Source of the DNA: a virus
Length of the DNA stretch: 27,763 bases
Direction: 5' to 3' (one strand)
IMG/VR virus record: IMGVR_UViG_3300042946_000596
Location: 1-27,763 of that record
The notes beneath the pieces were generated by a model that made no database searches, had not been told where the DNA came from, and saw nothing but the letters and a program-made list of their open reading frames with translations. Positions 10,434 to 26,392 of the stretch are shown here, piece after piece. The translations under genes were made by a program, and so were the position numbers. Position 1 is the first letter of the stretch; each line of letters begins with the position of its first letter.

Positions 10434-11387
10434 ATGAAAGCACTGATCACGGGAATCACCGGGCAGGACGGCAGCTACCTCGCGGAGTTGCTGCTGGCGA
10501 AGGGCTACGAGGTGCATGGAATCGTGCGGCGGTCCAGCACGTTCTCGACTGGCAGGATCGAGCATCTCTACGAGCGGCTGCATCTGCACTACGGGGACGT
10601 CACCGATGGCTCGTCGCTCTACAGTTTGTTGCGAAAATTGCAACCAAGTGAGGTGTACAACCTCGCCGCCCAGAGCCATGTCCGCGTGAGCTTCGACCAG
10701 CCGACCTACACGGCCCACGCCACGGGCGTCGGGACGCTCGCCGTCCTTGAGGCCATGCGGGACGTCGCCCCGAAGGCCCGCTTCTATCAGGCGTCGTCGA
10801 GCGAGCAGTTCGGCAACGAGCCGTCGCCGCAGTCGGAGACGACAGCCTTCCGGCCGCGGTCGCCCTACGCCTGCGCGAAGGTGTTCGCCCACCACCTCGC
10901 CGTCAACTTCCGCGAGAGCTACGGCCTCCACATCTCCTGCGGCATCCTGTTCAATCACGAAAGCCCCCGCCGGGGCGAGACGTTCGTGACTCGGAAGATC
11001 GCCCAGGCCGTAGCCCGGATCGCCGCCGGGAAACAAGAAAAGGTCGTCCTCGGGAACCTCGATGCCCGGCGCGACTGGGGTTTTGCGGGTGACTACGTCG
11101 AGGCGATGTGGCTCATGCTCCAGCAGGAGCAGCCCGACGACTACGTCGTCGCCACGGGCGAGACGCACAGTGTCCGCGAGTTCCTTGAGGTGGCCTGCGA
11201 GCGGGTCGGCCTCAAGCCCGAGGCGATCGTCGCCCACGACCCGCGGTACGACCGGCCTGCCGAGGTGGACTGCCTCCTCGGGGACGCCGAGAAGGCGCGG
11301 CGCGTCCTCGGGTGGCGGCCTTCGGTCGGCTTTCGCGACCTCGTTCACCTGATGGTCGATGAGGAGGTCCGTCAGGCAGGTGCTTGA
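10434..11387 (+). CDS. gmd: GDP-mannose 4,6-dehydratase
   Basis: The 317-residue product is an extended short-chain dehydrogenase. It has the Rossmann NADP motif GITGQDG (7-13), the catalytic SSSE (121-124, matching Thr-Ser-Glu in bacterial GMD), YACAK (145-149, YxxxK) and the family segment [15 protein letters not shown] (212-226). It converts GDP-mannose to GDP-4-keto-6-deoxymannose in the cytoplasm, step one of GDP-L-fucose synthesis; step two is encoded at 25463-26392. GAGG lies 7 nt before ATG 10434. It is slightly shorter than many cellular GMDs. Its 3' end overlaps a minus-strand gene. It is likely an acquired host-surface-modifying gene. Confidence 0.93.
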
Positions 11388-16993: not shown

Positions 16994-17025
16994 CACTACC
17001 ACACATGAGGATGATGGAGTGCAAT

Positions 17026-18642
17026 ATGGCATTTGAGTTCGATCCAGACGAGATGTTCCGGCTCTGCGCACTCTACCTGTCGAAAGGCATGAAGATTGTC
17101 CGCGTCGAGGGCATCTGGCCCAACGGGTACTGCACCTGCGGGAACAAGTCGCACTTCACCGACCCGGCAAACGGCCTCGCCACTGCCGGAGCGAAGAAGT
17201 GCGGCAAGCATCCGGTCGGCGAGGGGTGGGCGAACCACTACGCGAGGTCGGAAGACGACATCCTGCGGTGGCTTGCCGATGGAGTTCCTTTCAATGTCGG
17301 ATTGCTCCTCGGACCCGAGGGCGGCCTGATCGACAACGAGGACGACACCCCCGCCGGGACGGCTTTCCGAGAGTCGCTCGGGCTTGCATTGCTTGAGACT
17401 CCGACATGGACGTCTGGGAAATCAATGCACCAAGCGACTCGATGGACCGAGAAGCTGTCGGTCGTCGGGAAGCAGAAGGAGACGATCTCCGGCCTGGAGA
17501 TTCGCGTGGGATGCGGAAAGATGACACAGAGCGTCTTGCCGCCGTCGTGGCACTGGAGCGGGGTTCAGTACAAGTGGAAGCCGGGCTTCTCGCCCGACGA
17601 CATCGACTTCGCCGAGACCCCGCATGAACTTCTCGTCCCCTTGATCAACGGAGTCGATGGGTCGCCGACGATCGTCAGCAGCAGCGCCCCGGCTCGCAGC
17701 ATCCTGTTTGAGAAGGTCAAGGACGGCGACGGCCGCCACGACAAGATGCTGCGGTGGATGTGGCTGAAGTTCATCAAGACGAACGATCCGCTCAACAGGG
17801 CGACGTCCGAGGAGATGCTTGCGGAGCTTCAGGACACGAATCAGTGCCGCCTCGATCCCCCGAAGTCGAGGGACGAGATCACCGAGATGTTCAACCGCAC
17901 CAGCGAGCGGTTCAGGAAGAAGCTGGAGGGCGGATGGCGCCCCCGAGAGTCAGACCTGACCGACGCGGCGGTGGCCGCGGAGGCCAGGGCGCTCGCGGCG
18001 GGGGGGGACGACAGCGAGTCTCTTCCGGTCTGCGGGCTGATCAAGTACGGCATTGGTCAAGTCCGACCCGCCAGAGATCATCCTGTGCGTCGATGCGTGG
18101 AAGTCGTCGCCGTGTCACGGCAGGGTGTCGCTTTCGATGGACGAGTTCCGCTCCTCGCAGAAGGTGGCGTCGGCCGTGTTCACCGCAACCCAGCGGGTCA
18201 TGCTCGACGCCAATCCGTCGCTGTGGCGAAAGGCGTGGCACGGCCAGGAGCCGTCCAAGAAGAACGGAGGCATAGAGGTTCCCGGCCTTGCGCAACTCCT
18301 CATGGAGAAGAAGCAGGCCGAGGACGACCTGCCCGCGGGGGTGTCGAGCTTGAGGTATGCGGTCGTCGCCGGGTGGCTGCTCGACACCTTCAAGAAAGCC
18401 ACGTCACCGAAGGACGAAGAAAAGCCGGAGCCAAACGAGTCGGGGCGCCCCTGCGAGGTCAAGCCGGGGGTGATCTGGTTCAAATGGGCCAAGACTTGGG
18501 AGGACATCGGCCGGATGCACGACGTCCAGGCCGGGGATCGCCTGAAGCTGAAGCGGATGCTCTGCCAGGAGGTCGGCGTCAAGGACTTCCGCGAGGACAG
18601 GCACACGTTCGGAGGCGTTCGGCAATCGTTCGTGGTGTTTGA
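17026..18642 (+). CDS. Primase-polymerase (AEP-type) N-terminal part; true frame leaves at ~18050
   Basis: Residues 1-~210 match bifunctional DNA primase/polymerases of the archaeo-eukaryotic type. They include a Cys-rich entry (CTCG...KCGKHP, 36-63), EGW..H, FNVGLLLG (89-96), the acidic metal site IDNEDD (102-107), a SGKSMH segment (130-135) and LPPSWH (171-176). A PriCT-like helical domain follows (about 240-310). From about codon 342 the frame becomes an Arg-rich shadow while the real C-terminus continues one frame over (18053-18697). Removing T18057 would join them into one ~556-residue protein. GGAG at 6 nt favours ATG 17026 over 17005. It would prime or copy phage DNA. Confidence 0.8.
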   Translation: MAFEFDPDEMFRLCALYLSKGMKIVRVEGIWPNGYCTCGNKSHFTDPANGLATAGAKKCGKHPVGEGWANHYARSEDDILRWLADGVPFNVGLLLGPEGGLIDNEDDTPAGTAFRESLGLALLETPTWTSGKSMHQATRWTEKLSVVGKQKETISGLEIRVGCGKMTQSVLPPSWHWSGVQYKWKPGFSPDDIDFAETPHELLVPLINGVDGSPTIVSSSAPARSILFEKVKDGDGRHDKMLRWMWLKFIKTNDPLNRATSEEMLAELQDTNQCRLDPPKSRDEITEMFNRTSERFRKKLEGGWRPRESDLTDAAVAAEARALAAGGDDSESLPVCGLIKYGIGQVRPARDHPVRRCVEVVAVSRQGVAFDGRVPLLAEGGVGRVHRNPAGHARRQSVAVAKGVARPGAVQEERRHRGSRPCATPHGEEAGRGRPARGGVELEVCGRRRVAARHLQESHVTEGRRKAGAKRVGAPLRGQAGGDLVQMGQDLGGHRPDARRPGRGSPEAEADALPGGRRQGLPRGQAHVRRRSAIVRGV

Positions 18643-18697
18643 CGACAAGTTCCGCGCTGCACTGGAGCGACTGGCGGCAGGCAGGGTTGACGCCTGA
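18053..18697 (+). CDS. C-terminal domain of the primase-polymerase in the shifted frame
   Basis: This frame opens after a stop at 18038 and gives KSDPPEIILCVDAW..., a compact domain with helices (SSQKVASAVFTATQRVMLDA), typical of the winged C-terminal region following phage primase-polymerases. TTG 18053 could start it independently, but no ribosome binding site is evident, and it fits exactly as the continuation of the upstream product (...KYGIG + KSDPPE...). A one-base insertion (mutation or read error) or a +1 recoding event are the explanations. Ends at 18697. Confidence 0.7.
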   Translation: MVKSDPPEIILCVDAWKSSPCHGRVSLSMDEFRSSQKVASAVFTATQRVMLDANPSLWRKAWHGQEPSKKNGGIEVPGLAQLLMEKKQAEDDLPAGVSSLRYAVVAGWLLDTFKKATSPKDEEKPEPNESGRPCEVKPGVIWFKWAKTWEDIGRMHDVQAGDRLKLKRMLCQEVGVKDFREDRHTFGGVRQSFVVFDDKFRAALERLAAGRVDA

Positions 18698-18904
18698 CGC
18701 CTTTTATAGGGGGATTTCGCGACCCGAAAATGATTTCGCAGTTTCGGAATTGCGTATTGGCGTCATTTTGCCGTAAGTCATTGGTGGCAAAGGCTTTACT
18801 GTGACGCAAGACGAAAATCATTTCGCGTAAGTGCGTATTTGGTCGTCGTAAAGCCTTGTGGTGTAGCAAGTTACGAGTGACGGAAAAAAATCAAGGAGGT
18901 TCGG
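18698..18904 (+). other. AT-rich repeat region; candidate replication origin or regulatory region
   Basis: This gene-free gap is visibly AT-rich in a GC-rich window. It holds two direct copies of CGAAAAT(G/C)ATTTCGC (18725-18739 and 18812-18826), each followed by GCGTATT(T)GG (18752-18760 and 18833-18842), and each nearly palindromic. A third partial copy (TCATTTTGCCGTAAGT, around 18763-18778) lies between. Copy two is flanked by an inverted repeat GGCTTTAC/GTAAAGCC (18792-18799, 18848-18855). Iteron-like repeats in AT-rich DNA between primase and helicase genes suggest an origin. An operator for the helicase gene is the alternative. It ends with AAGGAGG, the helicase ribosome binding site. 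Confidence 0.45.
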
Positions 18905-20566
18905 ATGAGCGATCTGAGGATCAAGGAAGTGATCGGCGGGGCGGGGACGGGGAAGACCACGATGATGGTCAGTGTCCTCTGTAAGGCCCTGGAGCGGCCC
19001 GAGGTGGGCGGCAATCCGTTTGCCCTGGGGTTTTCCAGCTTCACCCGAGCGGCCCGTGGAGAGGCCGCCAGGAGGGCTGGCGCGGCATGGGGCATGGACC
19101 CGTCGGTGCTGGAGAAGGAGGGCTGGTTTCGGACGGCACACTCGGTGGCGTATCGGCAGCTTGGGGTCCAGCGGGGCGAGGTCATCGCCGGGGGCAAGGA
19201 GGACGACAAATGGGTCTCCGAGGCCCTCGGGAGCGACGTGTCGTCGGCGTTCGATGACGAGGAGGAGGGCGGGATCCGGCTCTACGCGGGCGACCCGGTG
19301 GCGGCGGCGGCGCTGAACTACTGGAGTCTGGCGAGGAGTCTCGTCTGCCCCCTGCGGGACGTCGTCGAGGCCGATCAGAACCCCGAGGCGCCACCGGCCG
19401 ACGAGGTCATCAAGCGGATCGAGAGCTACGAGCAGGCCAAGCGGCTGGAGGGGCGGATCGACTTCACCGACATGCTGGGCCGGTTCGTCGGCCTGCGGTT
19501 CGATCCGGCGACCGGGCCGATCGAAGCGACTCCCGAGGGCGCCGTCCCCGACAACGTCGTGGGGTGGATTTTCGACGAGGCACAGGACGCCAGCAAACTG
19601 CTCGACATGGCCTGCCGGAGGCTGGTGACCGGCGACGCCTGCAAGTGGGTATGGCTGGTCGGAGACCCGTTCCAATCTCTCCACTCGTGGTGCGGCGGGT
19701 CTGCGGAGCACTTCCTGTCGTGGGGGACGAAGGACCGGAGCATCATGCCCCGGAGCTACCGATGCGCCCCGCCGATTATGGCTCTGGGGGAGCGATGCCT
19801 TCAGCGGCTCCCTGACTACTGGGATCGAGGGATCGCACCGGCCGATCACGACGGGCGGGTCGAGGAGTCGGAGAACTACGAGGACGATCTGGCCGACATC
19901 GACCCGCGGGAAGAGACGCTGGTGATCGCGAGGACGAACCGCCATGTGAAGAACATCGCGGCGATCCTCGACGACATCGGCATCCCGTTCCGCAGGACGA
20001 AGTCCCGCGGCGAGACGCTCAATCGGGATCTGGGCATGGCGGGGCTGTGGAAGCTCCAGCATGGCGAAGCTGCGACCGCGGAGGAGTGGACTCACGCCAT
20101 CGATTTGCTACCATCCAAGACCATCGACGGCAGGACATGGCTGACCCGAGGGAGCAAGTCGGCCTGGAACAAGGGGCTGAAGTCGCAGTTTGACTACATC
20201 TTCCCCGAGGAGATCGAGCGACTGGGGGCGACGACGCACCTTCAGGAGGCGATCAAGTCGGGTGCCTGGGGCGGCCTGTGTGACGGCGGGACCAAATGGA
20301 CGAACGCCGCCAAGAGGTGGGGCATCGAGGTCGTCGAGAAGCCGAAGGTCAAGATCGGGACGATCCACAGCGTCAAGGGCATGGAGGCGTCGAAGGTGAT
20401 TGTGCTGACGAGCGTCGGACGCAGGACTCGCGAGAGCGAGGAGGCTGACGAGCGTCGGTTTGCCGAGGAACGAAGGATCGAGTACGTCGCCTGCACGCGG
20501 GCGAAACACACGTTGGTCGTGGCGCACGACCCGAGAGAACGCTACCGCATGGAGTTGCCGGTATGA
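18905..20566 (+). CDS. UvrD/Rep-like superfamily 1 DNA helicase
   Basis: SF1A motifs in order: Walker A GGAGTGKTT (11-19), FSSFTRAAR (motif Ia), DEAQD (224-228), VGDPFQS (motif III), RSYRC (motif IV), SVKGMEASKVIVL (motif V) and ACTRAKHTLVVAHD (motif VI, about 529-542). It has 553 residues, smaller than UvrD because insertions 1B/2B are reduced. It would unwind DNA 3'-5' in replication or repair. AAGGAGG lies 5 nt before ATG 18905. It is the likely replicative helicase here, since no DnaB-like gene is present in the window. Its stop overlaps the next gene by ATGA. Confidence 0.92.
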   Translation: MSDLRIKEVIGGAGTGKTTMMVSVLCKALERPEVGGNPFALGFSSFTRAARGEAARRAGAAWGMDPSVLEKEGWFRTAHSVAYRQLGVQRGEVIAGGKEDDKWVSEALGSDVSSAFDDEEEGGIRLYAGDPVAAAALNYWSLARSLVCPLRDVVEADQNPEAPPADEVIKRIESYEQAKRLEGRIDFTDMLGRFVGLRFDPATGPIEATPEGAVPDNVVGWIFDEAQDASKLLDMACRRLVTGDACKWVWLVGDPFQSLHSWCGGSAEHFLSWGTKDRSIMPRSYRCAPPIMALGERCLQRLPDYWDRGIAPADHDGRVEESENYEDDLADIDPREETLVIARTNRHVKNIAAILDDIGIPFRRTKSRGETLNRDLGMAGLWKLQHGEAATAEEWTHAIDLLPSKTIDGRTWLTRGSKSAWNKGLKSQFDYIFPEEIERLGATTHLQEAIKSGAWGGLCDGGTKWTNAAKRWGIEVVEKPKVKIGTIHSVKGMEASKVIVLTSVGRRTRESEEADERRFAEERRIEYVACTRAKHTLVVAHDPRERYRMELPV

Positions 20567-21064: not shown

Positions 21065-21235
21065 ATGTCCACGCTCGTCGTAACACGGAAGATCGGCGAA
21101 GCCGTCAGGATTGGCGACGACATCAAGGTGACTCTCATCCGCGCCAAGCGTGATGGAGCCTACCGCCTCGTCATCGAGGCCCCCCGGTGCGTGAAGATCC
21201 TCCGCGAGGAGATTTACAGCGGAGCAGCCAAATGA
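21065..21235 (+). CDS. csrA: CsrA-family carbon storage regulator
   Basis: The 56-residue product aligns over its full length with CsrA/RsmA: VVTRKIGEAVRIGDDIKVTL, RLVIEAPRCVKILREEIY. The RNA-contacting residues near both ends (the early T-R-K and the Arg in LREEIY) are kept. The usual Gly in 'R.G..AP' is replaced by Val. CsrA dimers bind GGA in mRNA leaders and change translation or stability. It has its own promoter and GGAGG and leads a long operon, so it would be made early and could act on host messages or on the phage's own GGA-rich ribosome binding sites. The stop overlaps the next gene by ATGA. Confidence 0.92.
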   Translation: MSTLVVTRKIGEAVRIGDDIKVTLIRAKRDGAYRLVIEAPRCVKILREEIYSGAAK

Positions 21236-21746: not shown

Positions 21747-22018
21747 ACGCCATGCTGCCATTCATGGCCTCAGAAGCTACCCCACTGGACACCGCAGTGG
21801 CCGACTTTGTCTCCCGGCTCCCCAAGGGCGAGGGACACGTCGGCTGCAACTACCTGTGGTTCGCGTTTGAACACGACCATCCGGCGATCGTCTCCCTCGA
21901 AGACTTCGAGGCTTCGGCCGCCAGGGTCACCGAGACCTCGACGGTCTACGGCCGTCGATTCATCGAGGGCGTCGATCCGGTGGGCGTGAAGGCTCTGTAT
22001 CTGGAGACGTTCGCTTGA
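21743..22018 (+). CDS. Small acidic protein, 91 aa
   Basis: A 91-residue alpha/beta protein with a DTAVADFVSRLPKGEGHVGCNYLWFAF segment and two acidic regions. It has one Cys and no signal or membrane helix. ATG 21743 overlaps the previous stop and its own stop overlaps the TTG start of the Tat-signal gene (TTGA). No family is recognised. Confidence 0.6.
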   Translation: MNAMLPFMASEATPLDTAVADFVSRLPKGEGHVGCNYLWFAFEHDHPAIVSLEDFEASAARVTETSTVYGRRFIEGVDPVGVKALYLETFA

Positions 22019-22449
22019 ACCAGTCTCGTCGCTCATTTCTCGGTCTCATCTCCGCGGTCTCGGCGGCGGTGGCTTCCGGTGTTCGCATCCCAGCGAGTAC
22101 CGAGGTCGCTGCCGCCGGGACTGCGCCGGTCAAGGGGCGTATCAAGCCCGTTGTGTCGGTCAAGGCAACGAAACTTGAGCGCGACCTGCGGAAGCTGCTG
22201 GAGCAGTACATCGTCATCGAGACCGAGGGGATGCAGTGCTTCGACGGGCCGACGCACTGGCGAGTTGTGTACCGCAAGGGCAATGGGGCGACGTCGCCGC
22301 TGGATGCCAACAGGAGCGACTGGGAGCGACTGCGGCCGACCGCCATAAAGCTGACCTCTTACGAACCGCACCCGTACTGGGTGGCAGGCAAGAAGCTCTA
22401 CGCCCCGGTCGATCCATCCGACTACACCATCGAGGTGACGTGGGCATGA
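22015..22449 (+). CDS. Exported protein with twin-arginine (Tat) signal peptide, no. 1
   Basis: The start is TTG 22015, overlapping the previous stop. Residues 1-~35 form a Tat signal: SRRSFLG twin-arginine motif (positions 4-10), a weakly hydrophobic Ala/Val core and a small-residue end. The mature part (~110 residues) has a helix (KLERDLRKLLEQYIVIETEG) and beta-rich Trp/Tyr segments (HWRVVYRKGNG, PYWVAGKKLY). No catalytic motif is recognised. The Tat route exports folded proteins. Another Tat-signal gene and a tatA lie within 1.4 kb, so export by a phage-modified translocase is the likely context. Confidence 0.7.
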   Translation: MNQSRRSFLGLISAVSAAVASGVRIPASTEVAAAGTAPVKGRIKPVVSVKATKLERDLRKLLEQYIVIETEGMQCFDGPTHWRVVYRKGNGATSPLDANRSDWERLRPTAIKLTSYEPHPYWVAGKKLYAPVDPSDYTIEVTWA

Positions 22450-22667
22450 GCCACCGTGTCGAAACCATTCGCCGAATCAGCAGCGGCGACATTCGCGTCG
22501 ATGTCGGGCCGTCACCGGAGAAAGAAGGCAAGGTGAGGCTGTCGGTGTTTTCGCAGCGATTCTTCGTCAGCGAATTGACCATGGACCCAGGCGTAGCCAA
22601 TGAGATCGCCGACGCGATCTACGACCGCATCGTTGAAATCGAGATGGGTGAGGAGGACGACAAATGA
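22446..22667 (+). CDS. Small protein, 73 aa, unknown function
   Basis: Coupled by ATGA at both ends. The product has a beta-rich first half (ISSGDIRVDVG, KVRLSVFSQRFFVSEL) and an acidic C-terminal helix (VANEIADAIYDRIVEIEMGEEDD). No motif, Cys pair or membrane segment is present. It shares the 'strands then helix' build of the next gene, and the two may be related or form a complex. Confidence 0.6.
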   Translation: MSHRVETIRRISSGDIRVDVGPSPEKEGKVRLSVFSQRFFVSELTMDPGVANEIADAIYDRIVEIEMGEEDDK

Positions 22668-22894
22668 GCGACCGCCTACCGAAAGTCATAGTGATCCGCG
22701 AGATATTCAGCGCTCTGAGTTCCGGCCGCGGTGAATGGCACCATGCGGTCAAGCCTCAGGACGGCATGGTTGATGTCGTCTACTACGAGAACGACATCCT
22801 CAGGAACTACATCAGCATCACCCTTGACTCGGCCGAGGCGTTCGCCGCCGCGATCGTGGCGTGTGCGAATGAGATGAGGGCTGCCGAACAATGA
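22664..22894 (+). CDS. Small protein, 76 aa, unknown function
   Basis: Coupled by ATGA to its neighbours. It has strands around KVIVIREIF and YISITL, then a C-terminal Ala-rich helix (SAEAFAAAIVACANEMRAAE). No family is recognised. It lies directly upstream of the second Tat-signal gene. Confidence 0.6.
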   Translation: MSDRLPKVIVIREIFSALSSGRGEWHHAVKPQDGMVDVVYYENDILRNYISITLDSAEAFAAAIVACANEMRAAEQ

Positions 22895-23271
22895 ACCGCC
22901 GATCCTTCCTCGCCGCCGCAGTCGCCGCCCTGGCCGGATCGACGGTCGCGAAGGGCGCCGTCCTGCCGCTGACACTGCCCGACACCCCCGTCGAGCTTGC
23001 GAAGCAGGCGGGGATGGCGGTGCCGCCAGCAGCCGTGGCCGAGGCCGTGAAGCAGTCGGTCTCGACGCCCTACGGCATCCACCCGGCCCTGCTTGGCGGC
23101 GGATACCTCCGCATCCACGACCTGATCTACGAGAAGTTCGCCCGAGAGATGGCAAAGAGGATCGACGAGGAGTTCTGGGTGTCGGTGGACGCCTGCCAGA
23201 AGGCTCAGTCCAAGATCGCCCCTGCCTGCAAAAGGATCACTGGTTTCCCTGTTCGCAAGTTCACCCACTGA
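22891..23271 (+). CDS. Exported protein with twin-arginine (Tat) signal peptide, no. 2
   Basis: Begins MNRRSFLAAAVAALAGS: a twin-arginine motif (NRRSFLA) and a short Ala-rich hydrophobic core, a strong Tat signal. The mature part (~100 residues) is mostly helical with two Cys near the C-terminus (DACQKAQ, APACKR) and ends KFTH. No catalytic motif is recognised. ATG overlaps the previous stop. The tatA gene begins 12 nt after its stop, so substrate and translocase component are adjacent in the same transcript. Confidence 0.7.
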   Translation: MNRRSFLAAAVAALAGSTVAKGAVLPLTLPDTPVELAKQAGMAVPPAAVAEAVKQSVSTPYGIHPALLGGGYLRIHDLIYEKFAREMAKRIDEEFWVSVDACQKAQSKIAPACKRITGFPVRKFTH

Positions 23272-23282
23272 AGGAGGTTCCC

Positions 23283-23486
23283 ATGTTGTTCGCGTTTTTT
23301 GGTGTCGGCCCGATGGAGATGGTGATCGTCGGCGGCATCGCCGTGATGCTCTTCGGCGGGCGGTTGCCGAAGGTCGCCAGGAGCGTCGGCCAGTCGATCG
23401 TCGAGTTCAAGCGCGGCTTCCTTGAAGTCGAGCAGGAGTGTGCGGAGATCAGCCGGAGCATCGAGGCGAAGGAGAAGGCCCGATGA
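23283..23486 (+). CDS. tatA: TatA-like twin-arginine translocase subunit
   Basis: The 67-residue product has the full TatA architecture. A short N-terminal membrane helix (about 3-24) contains the polar Glu (E12) after GVGP. A hinge FGGRLP (24-29) and an amphipathic helix ARSVGQSIVEFKRGF (32-46) follow, then a charged tail. TatA oligomers form the export path of the Tat system in the inner membrane. No tatB/tatC is in this window, so it would have to work with host TatC. AAGGAGG lies 5 nt before the ATG, one of the best sites in the operon. TatA and TatB/E can be confused at this length. Confidence 0.88.
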   Translation: MLFAFFGVGPMEMVIVGGIAVMLFGGRLPKVARSVGQSIVEFKRGFLEVEQECAEISRSIEAKEKAR

Positions 23487-23731
23487 GCAAGAAGATCAAC
23501 GTCGCGAAGCTCCAGAAGGAAGCCGAGGCTGCTCGCGACGAGTGGATTGCAAAGGCCAACGTCTCCGCCCAGATCGGGCGATTGCTTGACAACAAGCTGC
23601 AAGAGGTGTCGGAAAACTCCTTGGATTCGATGTTCGCTGGGGCGGCGGATGGGAGGTTGACCACTGCAACGGCCGCGCCGGGGACAGCGCCGCTGGCGAC
23701 TACCTCCGCGAGAAGTGTGGGGCGGCCGTGA
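23483..23731 (+). CDS. Small protein, 82 aa, helical N-terminus and Thr/Ala-rich tail
   Basis: Coupled to tatA by ATGA. Residues 1-50 are helical and charged (KINVAKLQKEAEAARDEWIA, LLDNKLQEVSENSL). The C-terminal 25 residues are low-complexity Ala/Thr/Pro and may be disordered. No motif is recognised. Its stop overlaps the next gene by GTGA. Confidence 0.55.
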   Translation: MSKKINVAKLQKEAEAARDEWIAKANVSAQIGRLLDNKLQEVSENSLDSMFAGAADGRLTTATAAPGTAPLATTSARSVGRP

Positions 23732-23934
23732 AGGAGTGGCTCGACAAGGCGGCGGGCGAGTTGCCGCCGCTGCCGAAGCAGGCCATCAAGGCTCTCGTCT
23801 CGTCGTATCACGAAATGCTGGAGAGAGCCATCCGCGACCAGCTTTTCAAGAAGGCCCAGCGCGACGCAGCCGCGATAGCCGAGTCGATTGCTTTGGAGGT
23901 CACTTCCGAGCCTGAGAAGGAGCAGCCCGAATGA
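23728..23934 (+). CDS. Small helical protein, 68 aa
   Basis: GTG 23728 overlaps the previous stop. The product is almost all helix (MKEWLDKAAGEL, QAIKALVSSYHEML, IRDQLFKKAQRDAAAIAESI) with an acidic C-terminus. No family is recognised, no membrane helix. Its stop overlaps the next gene by ATGA. Confidence 0.55.
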   Translation: MKEWLDKAAGELPPLPKQAIKALVSSYHEMLERAIRDQLFKKAQRDAAAIAESIALEVTSEPEKEQPE

Positions 23935-25278: not shown

Positions 25279-25466
25279 AGCTCTTCGTCTGGACGGAGTT
25301 TTGCCCCGGCTACACGCCGGGGCTTGCATTCGCCCTGGCGTACACGAAGGCCGAGGCGAAAGCGGCTGTCGTGGCGATTTACGGCTGTGAGCCGAGCGAA
25401 TGGGGCAAGTGTCGCGTTCACCGCGTCGAGTCTGGTCGGGCCGAAGCAATTGGAGGAGGGGCATGA
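25260..25466 (+). CDS. Small protein upstream of fucose synthase, 68 aa
   Basis: GTG 25260 begins inside the previous gene. The product reads KLKLFVWTEFCPGYTPGLAF, then an Ala/Lys-rich helix (TKAEAKAAVVAIYG) and a short beta end. This 'kLfvWt....dyt.G.a.a.a...eeA...v' pattern is common in small phage proteins without known function. It is coupled to the fucose synthase by ATGA. A perfect 8-bp hairpin (25303-25323) inside the gene appears coincidental with coding. Confidence 0.6.
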   Translation: MEESKLKLFVWTEFCPGYTPGLAFALAYTKAEAKAAVVAIYGCEPSEWGKCRVHRVESGRAEAIGGGA

Positions 25467-26392
25467 TGAATCTCAAGGACAAACGCATCCTGATCACCGG
25501 AGGCAACGGCTTCCTCGGTCGCGCCGTCCGGCGGGCGCTGCAGTCGAGGGGCGTGTACGCCTGCTGCCCGTCGAGCCACGACTGCGATCTGCGGTTTCAG
25601 TCGGTCGCGTCGGGCTATTTCCAGTTCCATTGCCCCGAGATCGTCATTCACCTCGCCGCCATCGTCGGCGGGATCGGCGCCAATCGCGAGCGACCCGCCG
25701 ACTTCTTCCGCGAGAACATTCTGATCGGTATGAATGTCGCAGAACTCTGCCGTCGTTATCGAGTCCAGAATCTCATCAACATCGGCACCGCCTGCTCCTA
25801 TCCGGCCGACGCTCCGACGCCGATCGAGGAGTCGTCGATGTGGTCGGGCTACCCCGAGCCGACGAACGCTCCTTATGGCGTGGCAAAGCGGGCCATGATC
25901 ACGATGCTCGACGCCTACCGGGACCAGTACGGCCTTGAGTCGGTGACGCTGATCCCAGCAAACCTCTATGGCCCAGGCGACAACTTCGACCCCGAGACGA
26001 GCCACGTCATCCCGGCGATGATTCGGAAGATCGAGGAAGCGAAGCGAACAGGTGTCCCGCCGGTCTTCTGGGGCAACGGCAACGCCACCCGGCAGTTCCT
26101 CTACGTCGATGACGCCGCGGAGGCGATCGTGCGAGCCGCCGAGCGTGACATCGGCGAGACGGTCGTGAATCTGCCTGGCTCCGAGGAGGTGCAGATGCGG
26201 CAGCTTGCCGGTCTCATCGTCAACGCCTGCGGCTACGGCGGCAGCGTCACCTGGGACGGCTCGATGCCCAACGGCCAACGCCACCGCGCCCTCTGCGGCA
26301 AGCGTGCGAGCGACTGGCTGAATTGGTCGCCATCGACTACATTAGCCACCGGGCTAGCGAATACGGTCGAGTGGTGGAGGCAGCAGGGATGA
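25463..26392 (+). CDS. fcl: GDP-L-fucose synthase
   Basis: The 309-residue product is an extended short-chain dehydrogenase of the GDP-fucose synthase type. It has NADP motif GGNGFLG (13-19), GTACSYP (108-114, with the family Cys C111), YGVAK (138-142, YxxxK) and NLYGPGDNFDPETSHVIPAM (168-187) with catalytic H181. A family-typical FLYVDD (212-217) is also present. It epimerises and reduces GDP-4-keto-6-deoxymannose to GDP-L-fucose, completing the pathway begun by the enzyme at 10434-11387. GGAGGAGGGG precedes ATG 25463. It is coupled upstream and downstream by ATGA overlaps, so it belongs to the late part of the csrA operon rather than beside gmd. Confidence 0.93.
   Translation: MMNLKDKRILITGGNGFLGRAVRRALQSRGVYACCPSSHDCDLRFQSVASGYFQFHCPEIVIHLAAIVGGIGANRERPADFFRENILIGMNVAELCRRYRVQNLINIGTACSYPADAPTPIEESSMWSGYPEPTNAPYGVAKRAMITMLDAYRDQYGLESVTLIPANLYGPGDNFDPETSHVIPAMIRKIEEAKRTGVPPVFWGNGNATRQFLYVDDAAEAIVRAAERDIGETVVNLPGSEEVQMRQLAGLIVNACGYGGSVTWDGSMPNGQRHRALCGKRASDWLNWSPSTTLATGLANTVEWWRQQG

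Follow-up and report, generated by a model that had tools for sequence, protein, structure and literature searches.

A phage TatA gene beside twin-arginine signal genes and its probable part in an accessory export module

Why should a phage carry a gene for TatA, and why should that gene lie next to genes for proteins with twin-arginine signals? As described in PMC5102672 and PMC13323110, the twin-arginine signal is bound by TatB and TatC, and the receptor so occupied recruits multiple TatA protomers. The question is raised by the window, by which we mean the whole stretch of DNA analysed, a single IMG/VR virus record of 27,763 bases. Matches to an integrase, two helicases, a primase, a DNA repair exonuclease and a PhoH-like protein among its other genes identify the window as phage DNA, and synteny in other virus records disfavours the view that the Tat genes are host chromosome, in agreement with an earlier note that had placed them in a phage. 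The answer that we favour, with moderate confidence, is an accessory Tat-export module, in phages most likely infecting Planctomycetota, with phage and host Tat parts together exporting folded phage cargo.

The two signal genes, here called RR1 and RR2, and tatA were all found at the earlier note's coordinates, on the plus strand. They lie in a variable stretch that is opened by a gene for a csrA-like regulator (21065-21235, plus strand; PF02599, 58.9 bits) and preceded by a gene for a UvrD-like helicase (18905-20566, plus strand; phrog_1967 DNA helicase, 161 bits), which serves as the syntenic anchor of the phage group and is shared by 54 related virus loci. Nearly all 54 have a csrA-like gene after the helicase, a strikingly constant phage-borne regulator. 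RR1 (22015-22449) encodes 144 aa from a TTG start. Two small genes on the same strand separate it from RR2: 22446-22667, defined by its reading frame, whose product has no family match above cutoff in family profile searches, and 22664-22894, which is conserved at the same place in two related phages, G001 and G002 (the same gene in L002 and L003). RR2 (22891-23271) encodes 126 aa and lies directly upstream of tatA (23283-23486; 67 aa). The genes had been described as one ATGA-coupled operon, which holds for those starting at 22446, 22664, 22891 and 23483; RR1, however, starts with a TTG that overlaps the previous stop as TTGA, and tatA is not ATGA-coupled but follows RR2 after an 11-nt gap. 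The strong ribosome binding site reported for tatA is present as the Shine–Dalgarno sequence AAGGAGG (23271-23277, plus strand), overlapping the RR2 stop codon. Promoter and terminator scans gave results at chance level.

The tatA product passes the Pfam profile PF02416 (TatA_B_E) with 37.8 bits against a gathering cutoff of 21. With TIGR01411 (tatAE) it scores 45.7 bits, below the curated cutoff of 53.9, and with the tatB model 21.6 bits; from the difference between these two scores it is taken to be of the TatA rather than the TatB type. The full helix-hinge-amphipathic layout, proposed on inspection and now backed by the profile search, comprises an N-terminal helix, short and carrying a polar Glu, together with the FG hinge, LPK and RSVGQSIVEFKRG as the amphipathic segment. 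All of its phage relatives score above the PF02416 cutoff, with exactly one TatA per record, and residues E12, F24, G25, L28, P29 and F42 are invariant across nine phage sequences. The gene is under selection in the phages, with pN/pS of 0.15-0.47 between them, synonymous sites being partly saturated. The likeness to TatA/TatE of bacterial Tat translocases thus covers profile, helix, FG hinge and amphipathic helix, and the nearest of these are the TatA proteins of Planctomycetota. Unlike bacterial TatA/TatE, the phage proteins come without tatB or tatC and are encoded beside phage twin-arginine genes; they are 58-67 aa long, and one phage clade has an invariant cysteine in the tail. In the window this cysteine is residue 53, part of an E-C pair in the C-terminal tail (23435-23441); it is invariant in ten main-clade phage TatAs, and the host TatAs compared have no counterpart at that place.

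A scan of viral contigs with TatA gave nine relatives at 39-81% identity, a scan with an alignment added a tenth, and two more, near-identical, were reached via helicase neighbourhoods. With near-duplicates counted once and the window included, these make up 11 phage types, in 10 of which tatA has a twin-arginine gene abutting it, overlapping it or close beside it. The neighbour lies upstream in nine types, as a family B protein in six and in the RR2 slot in three, and downstream in one (G009). The eleventh type (G004/G005) has no adjacent twin-arginine gene; a protein of family alpha, the family of RR1, is encoded on the same strand at a distance of 4.5 kb. Of 42 further related virus records, 40 lack the gene for TatA, the exception being the pair L121/L122, and TatA is an accessory in this phage group. 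Six related loci without it carry family alpha proteins, so this family can do without TatA. Within the 10 kb or less that was examined after the helicase, Tat-signal genes occur at 5/5 loci with TatA and 6/33 without (Fisher p 9e-4), a result that we regard as supportive rather than conclusive since the test ignores shared ancestry and covers only that stretch.

TatA is a small membrane protein that forms oligomers. These properties would suit a small holin-like protein that perturbs the membrane or poisons the host Tat system and is gated by membrane-anchored twin-arginine neighbours, and the short tail with an invariant cysteine, kept in the phage clade and absent from the host TatAs compared, could be read in the same way. 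We consider this unlikely: the residues typical of a working TatA are invariant in the phages, the unit lies in the helicase-csrA region outside any recognised lysis cassette, and a holin would not be expected to be linked to genes whose RR signals are conserved.

The export module requires that the neighbouring proteins carry true Tat signals. The RR1 protein begins MNQSRRSFLGLISAVSAAVASGV, with the motif SRRSFLG, and the RR2 protein begins MNRRSFLAAAVAALAGSTVAKGA, with the motif NRRSFLA; in both the twin-arginine motif is accompanied by an N-terminal hydrophobic stretch. They resemble known twin-arginine signal proteins (PF10518, TIGR01409) in having RRxF(L) close to the N-terminus and, after it, a stretch without charged residues. 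The RRSFL signals had been called clear, but taken individually neither passes the hidden Markov models: RR2 scores 13.8 bits with PF10518 (TAT_signal; E 0.059 over 24,736 models) and RR1 11.9 bits with TIGR01409 (E 0.23), both below threshold. What stands of the claim is an excess over chance and the recognition of the family. By shuffling of residues in the window's 37 genes, 0.00075 N-termini with RRxFL plus a hydrophobic stretch are expected per window, against two observed. The 13 aligned members of family alpha are ~30% identical and share five invariant columns, three of which belong to the Tat motif (its R, R and F), and TIGR01409 matches 11 of the 13, one of them (L127, 21 bits) above the curated cutoff of 16.7. 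A twin-arginine signal starts every member found of family alpha and of family B. Because RRxF is invariant and relatives match TIGR01409, the predicted signals of RR1 and RR2 are taken to be Tat signals, the stronger evidence being that of the relatives. A reading of the RRSFL starts as hydrophobic N-termini that arose by chance would fit the sub-threshold scores in the window, but it is extremely improbable in view of the shuffling result, the invariance of RRxF in so divergent a family and the member above the curated Tat cutoff.

What lies behind the signals is far less familiar. Family profile searches gave no functional family match for the mature parts of RR1 and RR2, and PHROG and Pfam scans of the cargo proteins gave nothing functional except a capsid/portal signal in the RR2 protein of G001. 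These are small phage proteins whose mature parts, in contrast to those of known Tat substrates, match no known Tat substrate family. Scans of viral contigs with RR1 alone or RR2 alone found no relatives, and a scan with a single family B protein found only its own record; the relatives of RR1 and RR2 were reached via TatA and helicase neighbourhoods, and in G001 and G002 the slot of RR2 is occupied by its distant relatives. The mature domain of RR1 had no match in 392 Planctomycetota genomes, a set that contained no positive control. In the model of the RR1 family the mature domain is predicted to be alpha-beta-beta-alpha-beta-beta, mostly at 76-90 pLDDT with one loop <61; structure searches gave no significant match for family alpha or for family B, whose model is of low confidence. 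Among the signal proteins, that of G009 (L010:6238-6687), encoded downstream of a divergent TatA, contains repeats of the kind YASFVLDGPFTLGE...YATFALKGRFPLGE. PADLOC models of anti-phage defence matched none of ten proteins.

In all, at least six unrelated-looking mature parts are carried behind RR signals, and in family alpha nothing is as well conserved as the signal. Such a pattern could arise if only the signal peptides mattered, acting as decoys that occupy host TatBC and leaving the mature parts free to vary. We think this quite unlikely, as a predicted mature domain, modelled with confidence in stretches, is retained in family alpha together with a conserved Y and P, and an extra TatA would counteract the blocking of Tat. 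The export module needs in addition a TatC and a host.

No match to the TatC profile PF00902 was found in the phage records searched, as the earlier note had reported for the window, although these records are fragments in which a tatC may be missed. With no phage TatC, host TatC would have to serve, and TatC is present in all eight Planctomycetota genomes checked. A scan of bacterial genomes returned 24 TatA relatives, all but one from Planctomycetota, the lone exception being a doubtful short match. The phage TatAs cluster among those of Planctomycetota, with that of G009 outside, and nine of them fall together and are spread over divergent phages; a single origin of the phage TatAs is not rejected (p-AU 0.126). 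Judged by this clustering, they are of Planctomycetota TatA ancestry. Planctomycetota are most likely also the hosts of these phages, for which the case is strong though short of proof. A related helicase occurs in one of 392 Planctomycetota genomes. The chromosomal region concerned (G357:C1:1372500-1411000; L140/L141) has the helicase and a csrA-like gene (profile match) and no TatA; by inspection it holds integrase-like and terminase-sized genes, its flanks look like ordinary bacterial genes, and it is an apparent prophage. Beside a terminase-sized gene, on the minus strand, it encodes a Tat-signal protein (L140:5539-5853) that begins MDRRGFLAAVVAVAAAPFVV.

An accessory gene of Planctomycetota ancestry might also be a mere passenger, recently captured from a host and near twin-arginine genes by accident. 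This is disfavoured, and we rate it very unlikely, for the nine phage TatAs cluster together across divergent phages, their pN/pS is well below 1 and an RR gene is the neighbour of tatA in all but one of the types.

The core of what the earlier note had proposed, a unit of substrates and pore subunit, is supported by comparison: the genes are phage genes, the signals are conserved, and TatA is intact, linked to them and without a phage TatC. Export itself we infer from these parts; the phage may also adjust the host translocase, as the same note suggested. The phage would make between one and three proteins that bear twin-arginine signal peptides, which a TatC-containing receptor of the host may recognise. 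The phage TatA, short, intact and made beside one of the signal proteins, would add to or replace the host TatA pool, from which the translocation site is formed, and it might raise export capacity or give selectivity; the phage cargo may there cross the membrane in folded form. Where related phages have a protein of the RR1 family and no TatA, they would presumably rely on the TatA of the host. The exported cargo would act at the envelope or within the periplasm. Given that location and the integrase, our guess is that its purpose is most likely lysogenic conversion (conversion of the envelope) or superinfection exclusion. Of the roles considered, lysis timing fares worst, as the Tat unit adjoins the helicase and csrA.

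One lead as to the cargo comes from G001, where the Tat-signal protein in the RR2 slot directly upstream of TatA (L002:5317-5952) matches the Phage_capsid profile PF05065 with 30 bits against a cutoff of 24.2 (E 4e-7). It also has PHROG major head protein matches, a TIGR01554 score of 23 bits (cutoff 27.5) and portal-like pieces below cutoff; the capsid-like and portal-like pieces stand in permuted order, and the protein is the best non-member for these phages' own capsid (E 0.03) and portal (E 0.12) models. The protein in the same slot in G002 (L003:5323-5913) has sub-threshold capsid/portal-like pieces and, by eye, a terminase-like stretch. For the RR1-family model, the list of PDB matches is topped by phage neck and tail-terminator proteins, which are non-significant (E >= 0.1, TM ~0.24). 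It is conceivable, if doubtful, that the cargoes exported by Tat are made out of proteins of virion assembly, or imitate them, and that beyond the inner membrane they serve to decoy or block rival phages.

As single elements, TatA and the Tat signal are already known; the variant that is new is the phage-borne unit of substrate plus TatA. Against a collection of phage genomes the window TatA gave one weak match (E 0.03) and a Planctomycetota TatA query gave none, whereas an E. coli TatA query did find TatA there, in records that are bacterial-looking (Salmonella, Acinetobacter) or short and unannotated. These were rejected as phage TatAs and taken to be contigs of bacteria filed in the wrong place, or short pieces that lack annotation. 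Like the window, the record of a circular marine virus (PMC10564846) has an annotated Tat component, but that component is TatC rather than TatA, and the passages of that paper dealing with it mention no Tat substrate beside it. No report of a phage TatA paired with Tat substrates was found in the open-licence literature. A phage TatA recurs beside phage Tat-signal proteins in an uncultured group and has no convincing match in the annotated phage records searched. If export is real, the host route for folded proteins is one that viruses can both exploit and supplement, and two questions arise: whether Tat export in an infected or lysogenic cell is limited by the supply of TatA, and which folded protein the phage needs outside the membrane.

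Some further features of the window deserve mention. Two open reading frames downstream of tatA (23483-23731 and 23728-23934) jointly match a single 146-aa gene that lies downstream of TatA in the related phage G006; the gene at 23483-23934 is split in the window by a frameshift or an assembly error. The primase gene (17005-18700) is likewise apparently frameshifted, near 17965-18044, the protein of a relative matching in frame 1 up to that point and in frame 2 beyond it. Finally, by inspection, two sugar-nucleotide genes (10434-11387 and 25400-26392) resemble those for GDP-mannose dehydratase and GDP-fucose synthase, and they possibly serve the modification of surface or virion glycans.
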